Of a stretch of 34,321 nucleotides of DNA, positions 276 through 34,180 are shown piece after piece. The notes under the pieces are model-generated. The model was not told the DNA's origin, did not search any database, and saw only the letters and a list, made by a program, of their open reading frames with translations. The DNA lies in assembly GCA_021772455.1 (NCBI GenBank), contig JAJFLY010000014.1, positions 1 through 34,321 on the forward strand, read 5' to 3'. Every line of letters starts with the position of its first letter. Position 1 is the first letter of the stretch. The translations under genes were made by a program, and so were the position numbers. This DNA is from Chlamydiota bacterium (lineage in GTDB: Bacteria; Chlamydiota; Chlamydiia; Chlamydiales; JAAKFR01).

Positions 276-2219
276 ATGAGAATCATTTTTACTGTACTTT
301 CTATTGTATCCATTTCTTTTTCAGTTTACTCTCTTACTTTTACAGTTGATCCAGGTGAAGTGCGTACGACTACACTTCCGTTGCCTGACCCTGGCGATCA
401 TGCAGTTGTGTCGGAAGGCGGCTCTATCACGACGATTGTTACAGCTATAACAATGGGTTCGGATGATCAAACAGCTGTCAATAATGGAGTCATTTCAACG
501 TCGGTAGGTGTTAATGCTTTTGGAATCGACAATAATGGAGGTGATCGTGTTGTGATGTTAAACAACGGGCTTATCACAACAACTGGTTCAGGTGGCCATG
601 CCATGCGGAGCACAAATGGTGCAGATGTTGTAATCAGGAATAATGGGAATATTGCCACTACAAATGCAGCGGCCTCCGGAATTAATCAGGATGGAAGCGA
701 CAGAGCAAGGCTTATAAATAGCGGTTACATTACAACTTTAGGGAGTATAGCTCATGGAATTGACAACAACGGTGATGATGTTGTCATCTTAAATACAGGT
801 CACATCTCGACTGCGTTTGATTTCACTAGTGGCATTCATAATTTTACAGGCAATAGGGGGATGATCACAAACTCAGGTCGCATTATAACCTCGGGTATTT
901 TTGCGGATGGGATTAACCATAGAGGCGATGACACTCAGATCATCAATAGTGGTTTGATTTTTGTTACAGGAAATGGCGCTAATGGGATTCAGGTTCCCTC
1001 TGGTGTTGGATCATTAGCTGACAACTTACATATTATTAACTCTGGAACGATCATATCGACAGAATCTTTTGCCATCGCTCAAGATGTTGGGTTAAATCCA
1101 ACCTATACTTTGCTTCGAGGCTCTAATCTACAGGGTGGAGTATTAATAGCAAATTCGAATCAACTCAATTTGAACGTCGAAACAGGCTTGAATCTTGCCC
1201 TCACGCTTGATCCCCTTAGCACCACTCCCTTTGGAAATTTTGGAATTGAGGCTCCTTTTATTCATGTTGGGGATACAGTTGGTGTAATCGATCCAACAGG
1301 CTTGGCCTTGCAGTCCGATGTGATCGCTGATCTTTCAGATACAATCCTAAATGGAATTTATCGCCACAGTCTTGGATGCTGCACCCCATGTGGGTGTGGA
1401 GTATGGGCGCAAGGAATTGGCAGCTACCGAGCACGTAGTCATGCTCACGACCATGTTGGGTATGACAACTGGCAAGCTGGTTTTCTTGTTGGGTATGATA
1501 GAAATGTATCGAAGGGCTTTTTCGGGCTGTTTGCTGGTGCCACATATGGCGAGGCAGTTGTTGATCAACACACCCAAAAAGCTTTTATCAATAGCTATGT
1601 TGCTGGTTTGACCTATGAAACCTGTTTCTGCGATAACTTTATTGGGTTGGCAATCACAGCTGGTTATATAGACTGGGATAATGACCGCTTTGTGATGAAT
1701 AACTTGGCTTCTGGAGGAGTCGAAACAGCACATGCTGATATCAATGGCCTCTTCCTGTCTCCAGAGCTCACAATAGCACGTCAATTTTCATGCTTATGCT
1801 TGGAACCGATCACGACGTTTACACTTCGTTATGCGGGATTTTTCCCAGGAGACTACCATGAAAATGGGTCTTTAACCGATTTATCTGTTGATAATCGCTA
1901 TATCAACCTACTCACAACCCGTCTTGAAGCAGCCCTTCCTTTTGCTAATACATGTGGCAGATGTTGTTGGAGCTTTGAGCCGTACGTAGGCGTTTCTGGA
2001 CGCTATCAAATTGGAAATTATGGAGTTGATGGAGAGTTGTTAGGGCAGTCTTTGAATTTTAATCAGGGTGGCCCCCGTAACGTGGCAGCCTTCCTCACAG
2101 GCTTTCGCGGTATCCAGTCGTTTGGCTGCCTCAATCTTTTCCTCAACTTAGAAGCGAGCTTTGACTCTCATAGCAGCGCTCGCATTTTAGGTGAAGGTGG
2201 GGTTAGTCTCAGTTTTTGA
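276..2219 (+). CDS. Autotransporter-type outer membrane protein with Cys-rich barrel
   Basis: The 647-residue protein starts with a signal peptide (about residues 1-19, hydrophobic, ending SVYS). Residues 60-270 are a passenger of about 25-residue repeats built on N-N/S-G-x-I-x-T ... A-x-G-I-x-x-x-G-D-D, typical of a right-handed beta-helix. From about residue 365 to the end it reads as an outer-membrane barrel with alternating aromatic strands and a C-terminal phenylalanine (SLSF), the hallmark of autotransporters and of chlamydial Pmp proteins. All 12 cysteines fall in the barrel half (from Cys368, motifs CCTPCGC, CFC, CLC, CGRCC) and none in the passenger. That fits the disulfide-linked envelope known in Chlamydiae. 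It lacks the GGAI and FxxN repeats of classical Pmps, so I do not give it a pmp name. Its 3' end overlaps comEC, which runs the other way, by 33 bases. Likely role: surface adhesin. Confidence 0.85.
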   Translation: MRIIFTVLSIVSISFSVYSLTFTVDPGEVRTTTLPLPDPGDHAVVSEGGSITTIVTAITMGSDDQTAVNNGVISTSVGVNAFGIDNNGGDRVVMLNNGLITTTGSGGHAMRSTNGADVVIRNNGNIATTNAAASGINQDGSDRARLINSGYITTLGSIAHGIDNNGDDVVILNTGHISTAFDFTSGIHNFTGNRGMITNSGRIITSGIFADGINHRGDDTQIINSGLIFVTGNGANGIQVPSGVGSLADNLHIINSGTIISTESFAIAQDVGLNPTYTLLRGSNLQGGVLIANSNQLNLNVETGLNLALTLDPLSTTPFGNFGIEAPFIHVGDTVGVIDPTGLALQSDVIADLSDTILNGIYRHSLGCCTPCGCGVWAQGIGSYRARSHAHDHVGYDNWQAGFLVGYDRNVSKGFFGLFAGATYGEAVVDQHTQKAFINSYVAGLTYETCFCDNFIGLAITAGYIDWDNDRFVMNNLASGGVETAHADINGLFLSPELTIARQFSCLCLEPITTFTLRYAGFFPGDYHENGSLTDLSVDNRYINLLTTRLEAALPFANTCGRCCWSFEPYVGVSGRYQIGNYGVDGELLGQSLNFNQGGPRNVAAFLTGFRGIQSFGCLNLFLNLEASFDSHSSARILGEGGVSLSF

Positions 2220-30797: not shown

Positions 30798-30860
30798 AGG
30801 GTACTATTTTCCACTTTTGGCTGTTTTTTGCCCCTCTCTATGTTCTCTCTATGCTCTATG

Positions 30861-30966
30861 ACCCTGATTGCTATCTAAACTTGTTGTTATAGTGCCCTAC
30901 CAAATCCGCAGTTGTATCTGTCGCACTCAAACGATTCCTAGACGAGGTTTAGGTAGCAATCAGGGT
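30861..30966. mobile_element. MITE-like element with inverted ends and target duplication
   Basis: A 106-base non-coding element lies between the PLD-like and PpiD-like genes. Its ends are inverted repeats of 20 bases, ACCCTGATTGCTATCTAAAC on the left (30861-30880) and the reverse complement with one mismatch on the right (30947-30966). The 5-base direct repeat CTATG flanks it exactly (30856-30860 and 30967-30971), as a transposase leaves a target duplication. The right 57 bases match the region 34032-34088 in opposite orientation, with three differences. It carries no transposase and would depend on one elsewhere. Confidence 0.8.
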
Positions 30967-31007
30967 CTATGGTTAATTTCCTGAAAATCAAAAGACGTTT
31001 TAAACAC

Positions 31008-31036
31008 TTGAAAAGTGGGTGAAAATGGCATATGAT
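31008..31036 (+). promoter_or_regulatory. Promoter for the PpiD/SurA-like gene
   Basis: TTGAAA (31008-31013) and TATGAT (31031-31036) are 17 bases apart, each one base off consensus. Transcription would start near 31043. A good ribosome site, AAGGGA at 31051-31056, stands eight bases before the ATG at 31065. The promoter begins 37 bases after the MITE target duplication, so the insertion separates it from the gene upstream. Confidence 0.6.
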
Positions 31037-31064: not shown

Positions 31065-33062
31065 ATGCTCCATTTTTTTAGAAAACACCAGAAATACTTC
31101 TTTCTCTTCACGACAATTATCATTGTAACAAGCTTTGCTTTCTTCGGGAGCTACCAAGCTTTTGCCCCCTCTCCGGGTGGTAAAAAGGGAAGCGATCCTG
31201 TCGTTTTTCACTCCGTTGATGGCAAACCGGTGAAACAGGCCTATCTCGAACACATGAGCTTATTTCTTTCTCGTGAAGATTGGATGCAATCTGCGAAGAT
31301 TTTTGATTCTAACTATCTAAATGACGGAATTGTCTCTAAAGACATCCTTGAAGGTGGCCTTAGCCCGATGCTGTTTGCCCATTTCAAAGACCACTATCTC
31401 GAAGAGCTTGAAAGGCGCCAAGCAAAAGAGCAAAACTACAGACCTTACCTCCATCCCTACATTCCTTCCCTTTCTGCTGCGACTGTTTGGGGACTTTTTG
31501 CTCCGGAGATTCCTGAAAAACTTGCCGCTTTTCAGCAATGCGAAGATCCAATTGCCTCGTTTGACGCCCGCGTTGAGCTCTTTTTGGCTGAAAGAAACTT
31601 TCCACCTGCTTTTTTAACCCAGGTACTACGCTACCAGGAAAGGGATCAGCCACGAGCTCCTGCCGATCCACGGCTTATGAAAGATGTAATCAGCTTGTTT
31701 GGGTACCACGATCTAAACGATTGGTTTGGCGAAAACTTTGTCCAAAGTGTAGCTGAGGTGGTGATTAATACCGCGGCCCTTGCAAGACAAAAAGGGTATT
31801 CAGTCTCCGAAGCAGAGCTACGTTCTGAGCTACTTTATAAAAGCGAAAAGACCTTTCAGGCTATTTCAGCCAATATCGATATCCCTGTCGAGAGTGGGCA
31901 GGAGTTTTTCCAAGTCTATTTGAGATCTAAAGGGTTAGATGAAGTAACAGCTCTGCGTATCTGGGAGGATATCTCCCTATGTAGAAGGATGATGCAGGAT
32001 GTGGGGTCAGCAGCTCTTGTAGATGCTCTCCCTCTTGAGCAATTTTACAGCTTTGCAAATGAGCATGCCACGATTGATCTCTATCAAATGGCGCCTGAGC
32101 TCAGGTTCAAATCTGATGAGGAGTCGCAAATTTTTACCGCTTATCTTGAGGCTGTAGCACCGAACTTCTCCGGTTATGAGATTCCGACTGAATACGCCTC
32201 AGTTGAGACAGTAGAAGCAAGAGCACCTCAACTTGTGGGCAAACGGTACCGCATCTATGTCGGGGCTATAGAAAAACAAGCACTTGGTGCAAAAGTGAGC
32301 GTGAAAGAGACGTGGGATTGGGAGCTTGCAAATTGGGATGCGCTTAAAAGAGCTTTTCCTGAACTAAGTTTTCAAGCAGGGACGCCTTTTGAGATTCTAG
32401 AGAAGATGGAAAACCGCAAAAAGATCGATGCTTACGCACGCGCAAAAATTGTCGAGTCCCATCCTGAATGGATCGAGGATAGTGTTAAGCAAGCTTCGAT
32501 GCGCGAGACCGAACTTTTTGTCTCTGCCTCTGGAGAGGGTGAGTTGCTTCCTGGAATCACTGACCGCGTTGCTTTCCAAAAGATGCTCGACACCGAAGAA
32601 GAGGTCGTAGGATTTACCCAAGATAAGAAACACTACTACCGCATTCTTGTTTATGAGCGTTCGGACACAAAAGAAATACTATCTTTTAAGGAAGCCAAAG
32701 GTCTTTTAAACCCTTCTTCCGATACTTCTGCTGTTTCTTTCGCCTCCTACCTGGAAAAATACCGCGATACGCCTGAAAAGGGGCTCTTTGGAATTGAGAA
32801 AAAAGAAGTTGTTGTGACACGGGCAAAACCAGGGGTGGTTTCACTCGATGAGGCCCTTGCCCTTGAGAAAGAGATCTACTCTTCTGTCGCTGTCGATGAG
32901 AATGAAGGAACCTATTGCTTTCGCTTGAAAGAGGTGCTCGTCGATACAACGATTCCGATGCAAAAGTGGATGGAAGCGCAAGAGCTACTCGCAAAAGAGA
33001 TGCGTGCGCAGTTTTTTGAAAACGTACTTGGTCAGTTATGCTCGAAGAACTCGTCCCTTTAG
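31065..33062 (+). CDS. PpiD/SurA-like membrane-anchored periplasmic protein
   Basis: A 665-residue protein with a short cytoplasmic start, one membrane anchor (about residues 12-31, FFLFTTIIIVTSFAFFGSYQ) and a long periplasmic part rich in helices. The opening and the anchor followed by V-x-G-x-x-V-x-x-x-x-Y resemble the SurA-N/PpiD chaperone layout (HSVDGKPVKQAYLEHM). No clear parvulin active site is visible, so it may be a chaperone without isomerase activity. It has its own promoter and ribosome site. Its end overlaps the DOMON-like gene by 25 bases. The placing is by overall layout, not by a strong motif. Confidence 0.6.
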   Translation: MLHFFRKHQKYFFLFTTIIIVTSFAFFGSYQAFAPSPGGKKGSDPVVFHSVDGKPVKQAYLEHMSLFLSREDWMQSAKIFDSNYLNDGIVSKDILEGGLSPMLFAHFKDHYLEELERRQAKEQNYRPYLHPYIPSLSAATVWGLFAPEIPEKLAAFQQCEDPIASFDARVELFLAERNFPPAFLTQVLRYQERDQPRAPADPRLMKDVISLFGYHDLNDWFGENFVQSVAEVVINTAALARQKGYSVSEAELRSELLYKSEKTFQAISANIDIPVESGQEFFQVYLRSKGLDEVTALRIWEDISLCRRMMQDVGSAALVDALPLEQFYSFANEHATIDLYQMAPELRFKSDEESQIFTAYLEAVAPNFSGYEIPTEYASVETVEARAPQLVGKRYRIYVGAIEKQALGAKVSVKETWDWELANWDALKRAFPELSFQAGTPFEILEKMENRKKIDAYARAKIVESHPEWIEDSVKQASMRETELFVSASGEGELLPGITDRVAFQKMLDTEEEVVGFTQDKKHYYRILVYERSDTKEILSFKEAKGLLNPSSDTSAVSFASYLEKYRDTPEKGLFGIEKKEVVVTRAKPGVVSLDEALALEKEIYSSVAVDENEGTYCFRLKEVLVDTTIPMQKWMEAQELLAKEMRAQFFENVLGQLCSKNSSL

Positions 33063-34023: not shown

Positions 34024-34036
34024 GGTCTAAGACCCT
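34022..34036. repeat. Short hairpin at the gcvH stop codon
   Basis: Seven-base arms, AGGGTCT and AGACCCT, surround a single A. The left arm includes part of the gcvH stop codon; the right arm overlaps the first bases of the altered MITE copy. No T run follows, so it is not a standard terminator. Confidence 0.45.
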
Positions 34037-34145
34037 GATTGCTACCTAAACCTCGTCTAGAAACCGTTTGGGTGCGACAGATACAACTCCCTTGCCTTTG
34101 GCGATGCAGGCAGTAGATGGCGTGCTCAAACGGTTTCTAGACGAG
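34032..34145. repeat. Altered copy of the MITE-like element, with long inverted arms
   Basis: Bases 34032-34088 match the right half of the element at 30861-30966 in the reverse orientation with three differences, starting ACCCTGATTGCTACCTAAAC. It then departs. A perfect 19-base inverted repeat, CTCGTCTAGAAACCGTTTG at 34052-34070 and its complement at 34127-34145, encloses about 56 bases. The second end of the original element is not present, so this is a fragment or a rearranged copy. It lies 36 bases before the terminal repeat at 34181. Confidence 0.75.
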
Positions 34146-34180
34146 TGAAGGGTTGCAAATACACGAGAAACTGTAGGCCA

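Follow-up and report, generated by a model that had tools for sequence, protein, structure and literature searches.

A 106-bp element of probable IS982-family descent in a Chlamydiota genome, and hairpins within the ends of its parent elements

The element and its genomic setting

The window analyzed here, a stretch of 34,321 nucleotides that forms one contig of a Chlamydiota genome, carries a 106-bp element situated between a gene encoding a PLD-domain protein and a gene whose product is weakly SurA-like (Table 1). A sequence-only reading had described the element by its length, its 20-nt inverted ends with 19 matching positions and the CTATG on both borders, and all of these are borne out: the left end reads ACCCTGATTGCTATCTAAAC and the right end, reverse-complemented, ACCCTGATTGCTACCTAAAC, identical at 19/20 positions. 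The inverted-repeat search reported arms of 21 nt at 95% identity for the element at 30861-30966, one position longer since it also takes in the flanking G/C pair. When the element and its duplications were folded as a single strand, the structure lay at z -7.9 relative to 200 dinucleotide shuffles, and the inverted-end structure is thus well above chance. The same reading had placed the element right before the promoter of the next gene. That placement depends on a single sigma-70-like match, which is at chance level (1 found, shuffled mean 0.7). Each end of the window contig lies within a copy of an IS982-family element of this kind, and the truncated copy at the contig start is adjoined by an autotransporter beta-domain gene (PF03797; window 276-2219).

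Table 1. Features of the window, with strand (a dot where none applies) and the basis of each assignment
Feature	Position	Strand	Basis
IS982-family transposase 3' fragment, at contig start	5..181	-	G000:C6:5-181:-, 63% to G028 protein residues 206-264
Target duplication, left copy CTATG (5 bp)	30856..30860	.	sequence, flank statistics
Left terminal inverted repeat, starting ACCC	30861..30880	+	86 related ends in genome
Parental IS982-family left end, 47 nt, variant without left hairpin	30861..30907	+	own-genome search, query 1-47
Deletion junction TCC, 3-nt microhomology common to both parental segments	30905..30907	.	segments 1-47 and 45-106 overlap
Parental IS right end, 62 nt, including outer arm of right hairpin	30905..30966	+	at least 10 other places 100% over query 45-106
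Right terminal inverted repeat	30947..30966	-	inverted-repeat search
Target duplication, right copy CTATG (5 bp)	30967..30971	.	sequence, flank statistics
Sigma-70-like promoter match TTGAAA-17-TATGAT before next gene	31008..31036	+	consensus match only
Downstream gene, 665 aa, weakly SurA-like	31065..33062	+	PF13624 23.2 bits, below cut-off 27.2
Longer IS copy, right end, cut by contig end; hairpin with shortened loop	34032..34321	+	R1 103 bits at 34031-34147

Parentage and origin of the element

A search of the whole genome carrying the window (1,726,812 bases) with a 21-nt end pattern, allowing up to three mismatches, located 86 ends, and the reversed pattern, used as a control, gave 0 matches in that genome; as far as the ends go, the refuting condition of a sequence without other copies is not borne out. 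Classified by the sequence behind the repeat, the 86 comprise 33 right ends (type B), two kinds of left end, 15 that carry a hairpin (A1) and 29 that lack one (A2), and 9 others. A contig end is faced within 750 nt by 46 of the 86, so the repeat often breaks the assembly, and no full-length parent copy was found in it. The transposase, likewise, is present as fragments, of which one of 138 aa scores 88.8 bits against NF033520, below the whole-protein cut-off of 130; intact relatives occur in genomes G028 (279 aa, 144.7 bits) and G137 (274 aa, 185.4 bits), in complete elements of 1147 and 1169 bp, respectively, set against a length range of 845-1282 bp for the family.

The available text of PMC7335449 describes the IS982 family, which includes ISPasp1-3 of Parachlamydia, as elements of about 1 kb whose ends begin with AC, with 11-32 identical bp in the end repeats and target duplications of 2-10 bp. 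The parent resembles this description in its NF033520 transposase, its AC-starting ends (ACCC, 19/20 identical in the window element and recurring in the 86 ends) and its 5-bp duplication; the Parachlamydia entries there, at 952-1023 bp, are shorter than the relatives in G028 and G137. An IS with the same ends and a 5-bp target, which had been proposed as something to look for, is therefore at hand in the same genome, and these sequence features assign the parent to the IS982 family of insertion sequences; it is very abundant and has spread to dozens of sites. At one locus (L015, G000:C10:151-3171) other reading frames lie behind an IS right end, one of them IS3-type-transposase-like by eye, so elements have become nested or recombined.

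The flanks of the ends define the target. Position -4 is C in 80 of the 85 flanks long enough to be read, position +1 is G in 83 of the 86, and CTNAG is found in 37 of the 85. The sequences support a target of 5 bp, mostly C-NNN-G and often CTNAG, with the element starting at ACCC, because base frequencies are similar on the two sides and IS982 elements mostly start with AC (57 of 69 in the available text of PMC7335449). The alternative of a 3-bp TNA duplication, with the G...C inside the element, is disfavoured by the G028 element, which stands between two copies of CTGAA and has A, not G, as its outer base. In the genomes G137, G139 and G096, all but one of the paired elements read have equal flanks (TAATA, TATTA, TAGTA or TACTA; 10 of 11), the exception (L153) having TATTA on one side vs TATTT on the other; among the paired elements of the window genome, the 5-bp flanks are equal in 5/11 and unequal in 6/11.

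The window element is composed of the left 47 nt and the right 62 nt of the parent, with a 3-nt overlap. A search of its own genome with the 106 bases matched at least 42 places (40 of 79 candidates scored), among which the window alone matches over 1-106, at least 15 over about 1-47, at least 24 over about 45-106, and two over shorter or partial stretches. Among the 86 ends, the 20-nt sequence spanning the TCC junction is peculiar to the window element, and within 77 loci of the genome it was found in only two, both of which hold the window site. The genome has ten other short elements with paired ends, measuring 61 to 643 bp by pattern ends, and every one is a mosaic of that IS with deletions of its own.

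Elements of a related kind were found elsewhere in the phylum. Units consisting of end, hairpin and end, 156-158 bp long or, counting the outer base pair, 158-160, occur in G028, G096 and G139. In G139 (L151-L158), four sites hold copies that agree throughout their 160 nt, and another three copies, 159 nt in length, show two base differences; the same genome has a form of 377 bp that carries both hairpins. Judged from this repetition the G139 elements are true MITEs, in multiple copies that the window element lacks. The latter shares with the G028, G096 and G139 elements the kind of end, the 5-bp duplication and the lack of a gene, but whereas these retain one hairpin between their ends, it keeps nothing of the right hairpin except the outer arm. 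A further comparison is offered by MITECca01, an IS982-derived MITE present in 169 copies in a Cardinium endosymbiont (available text of PMC9769881). Like it, the window element is short, lacks a transposase gene and shares its ends with an abundant IS982 element resident in the genome of an intracellular symbiont; unlike it, the window junction is found once, and the short elements of the same genome all differ. The sequence-only reading had held that such small elements are seldom reported from chlamydiae. No paper on chlamydial MITEs, nor on hairpins at IS982 ends, was found among the titles and the beginnings of abstracts listed from the open-licence literature, yet elements of this sort are present in several chlamydial genomes.

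Both same-genus genomes (G001 and G002, drafts that are 94% and 98% complete) lack the element, a comparison that had been suggested as a check, and neither shows the end pattern or a transposase match. Gene order is kept in both, where the spacer separating the two genes measures 31 and 66 nt vs 267 in the window genome; an exact empty site was sought, and alignable intergenic sequence was seen in neither. Within the 39 genomes searched, six contain the end pattern: the window genome itself (86), G028 (9), G006 (2), and G010, G030 and G037 (1 each), the last three being single matches with three mismatches that are perhaps due to chance. G006, of the same family and 59% complete, carries two relics of about 46-60 bp with the same ends, as seen by eye. 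A plasmid collection held no match for the G028 element.

How the 106-bp element arose is the first point on which readings diverge. The earlier designation as a MITE stands as far as it denotes a short, non-autonomous unit without a transposase gene, having inverted ends and a 5-bp target duplication and deriving from a resident IS, but it fails in that multiple near-identical copies are wanting, the junction being found once among 86 ends. A true MITE, formed elsewhere as a 106-bp unit and inserted by a transposase acting in trans, as the sequence-only reading had supposed, would account for the intact ends and the perfect 5-bp duplication, and has a precedent in G139, where MITEs with related ends have multiplied to four identical copies at four sites. 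However, deletion in place would leave the same duplication, and the ten other short elements of the genome, like the window element with its solitary junction, do not share a junction; we consider this origin rather unlikely. The element could also be thought of as serving the SurA-like gene, either as an ordinary conserved leader or as a regulatory hairpin, in view of its intergenic location before that gene and its favourable folding (z -7.9). This was rejected and retains a negligible probability, since the ends occur 86 times in the genome and the much narrower spacers of G001 and G002 include no such leader, as was asked of relatives beforehand; Rfam, too, gave no match to the element up to E 1.

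Shrinkage in place explains the element as well, because the junction is unique, the interior has the form of a short-repeat deletion of the parent, and the ten other short elements all differ. By this account, a full-length copy of the variant lacking the left hairpin would have inserted between the PLD and SurA-like genes, duplicating CTATG, and its interior of about 1 kb would later have been removed from the inserted copy by deletion between short repeats. On the sequence evidence, the 106-bp element is a one-off internal-deletion derivative of the parent IS, and a fairly ordinary one. As 6/11 paired elements have unequal flanks, rearrangement between copies happens too, and so small deletions and rearrangements are wearing down the IS copies of this genome, with the window element as one product.

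Conserved hairpins inside the parental ends

A hairpin of about 118 nt lies just inside the end repeat in the long parent copies, in the G028 relative and in other Chlamydiota. In this the parent departs from the IS982 family as described in the available text of PMC7335449, whose main text uses the word hairpin once, in a sentence on frameshifting. Predicted folding energies are -76 and -81 kcal/mol for an A1 left end and a B right end, and -71 and -77 kcal/mol for the left and right ends of the G028 element; a truncated piece of the right end of the latter, folded on the opposite strand, gave -29.4 kcal/mol (z -3.1), as compared with the -77 of the whole inward-reading sequence. In one copy (L007, G000:C5:17775-20795, minus-strand end at locus position 1521) the left hairpin is inverted relative to other copies, so the palindrome can flip.

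Six sequences representing four end types, from the window genome and G028, align with few gaps, and 29 of 44 pairs have changed on both sides. A model built from them (R1) was run against 151 Chlamydiota genomes under strict filters, with the matches per genome capped; 32 gave matches at E <= 0.001, and setting apart the two sources leaves 30 of the 149 others. Its E-values are rough, and weak matches near E 1e-3 were partly inspected. We inspected by eye 57 of 78 R1 matches, leaving aside the model's own ends, reverse-strand matches, duplicates and a few partial ones, and 53 of the 57 start with the ACCC...TTG...CC end repeat, in some cases degenerate (as in L159 and L186). The four matches that start without a recognisable end repeat (L182 and L183 in G156, L184 in G131, L188 in G060) possibly belong to another type of element. 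An IS982 transposase match accompanies the hairpin in 14 of 47 loci, the 33 loci without one including many short stretches, and in G137 the complete element runs from hairpin through a 274-aa transposase to hairpin.

Conservation was assessed in a separate alignment (A4) of 38 further ends, all outside the model and drawn from 16 genomes. It drew on 33 of 53 sources, after exclusion of the model's sequences together with L177 (L011, L030, L092, L177), of duplicates or near-duplicates (L146, L147, L152-L156, L158, L173, L174, L176) and of L181-L184 and L188, with E 1.2e-8 as the upper limit for a row. Because the rows had been fitted to the model, the alignment leans towards pairing, and near-duplicates from a single genome are among them. 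Two-sided changes affect 40 of 44 pairs vs 36.8 in shuffles, a count that alone says little; paired cells, by comparison, make up 89.3% vs 57.6% in shuffles, and covariation reaches 0.814 vs 0.216, with slid controls at 0.08-0.12. Folding without any alignment gave z -7.7 to -15.9 for 14 hand-picked ends that include the model's four types, and four ends of two ordinary IS982 elements (G023, G026) gave z +0.8 to -3.8, with no comparable hairpin. A symmetric tandem G-A (GA/GA) loop is kept in 32 of the 38 ends. On the inward-reading strand, 132 cells are of the G-U type vs 48 of the C-A type; this strand, whose 5' end is at the tip of the element, folds better in 35 of 38 ends. The hairpin loci had no Rfam match up to E 1, and by eye no obvious U-run follows the hairpins, which are therefore not canonical terminators. 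These patterns indicate that the hairpin is conserved through compensatory change in many Chlamydiota. A conserved end hairpin of an IS982 parent was not found described in the open-licence titles and abstract openings listed, though novelty is not thereby proven.

Possible roles of the hairpins

All 29 hairpin-less left ends share one common junction, at 29 different flanks, and for that reason the left hairpin seems to be dispensable for transposition. The hairpin-less form could alternatively have been spread by gene conversion between copies; it may also have arisen more than once, given that both forms, the one with the hairpin and the one lacking it, include T as well as C variants next to the junction. 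Because G-U exceeds C-A and the inward strand folds better, the sequences point to a hairpin formed by one strand alone, for which RNA from transcription running into the element is the simplest candidate. Our best guess is an RNA insulator. Transcripts entering from outside would fold the hairpin and then be cut or stalled, and neighbouring promoters would thereby be kept from driving the transposase (on the left) or its antisense (on the right); loss of the left hairpin may have freed the transposase gene and aided the spread. Dispensability on the left fits, as an insulator is not expected to be needed for transposition. Considered as a whole, the explanation in which an IS982-family internal-deletion derivative has shrunk in place, from a parent whose hairpins insulate it, appears to us probable.

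Other roles can be set against this one. The hairpins might act at the level of DNA, as cruciforms or single-strand hairpins that are bound by transposase or shield the ends, and it is in keeping with this that they adjoin the end repeat at both ends, that the best-folding strand has its 5' end at the tip, and that short MITEs in G028, G096 and G139 retain one hairpin between two ends. We nevertheless regard it as somewhat doubtful, since 29 left ends at as many sites do without the hairpin, the four ends of ordinary IS982 elements have nothing comparable, and the G-U excess over C-A fits RNA better. Arms kept alike by template switching during replication, with no function at all, form a distinctly less probable explanation: the inverted left hairpin of one copy (C5:19295) does indicate that the palindromes recombine, but the mismatched tandem G-A loop, kept in 32/38, is just what such correction would erase, and strand bias would not be expected of it. 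Structured ends are known from IS200/IS605 elements, and IS110 elements employ bridge RNAs, though their transposase chemistry differs from that of IS982. The hairpin-ended IS982 elements have in common with both the presence of secondary structure borne on the IS, of which the available text of the IS982 accounts contains no record. That end RNAs themselves take part in transposition, binding transposase or joining the ends and so constituting an RNA-assisted DDE element, would be compatible with the covariation, the conserved purine loops and the strand bias, yet we deem it very improbable.

If, as we favour, the hairpins insulate the transposase gene, they would represent a widespread device for self-control among chlamydial IS982 elements, and the left end that occurs without its hairpin at 29 sites would amount to a natural experiment on the restraint that the hairpin places on transposition. 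For the genome examined, what had been taken as a single MITE gives way to a picture of IS erosion in a symbiont, in which one element has undergone many different deletions and flanks have been rearranged as well.
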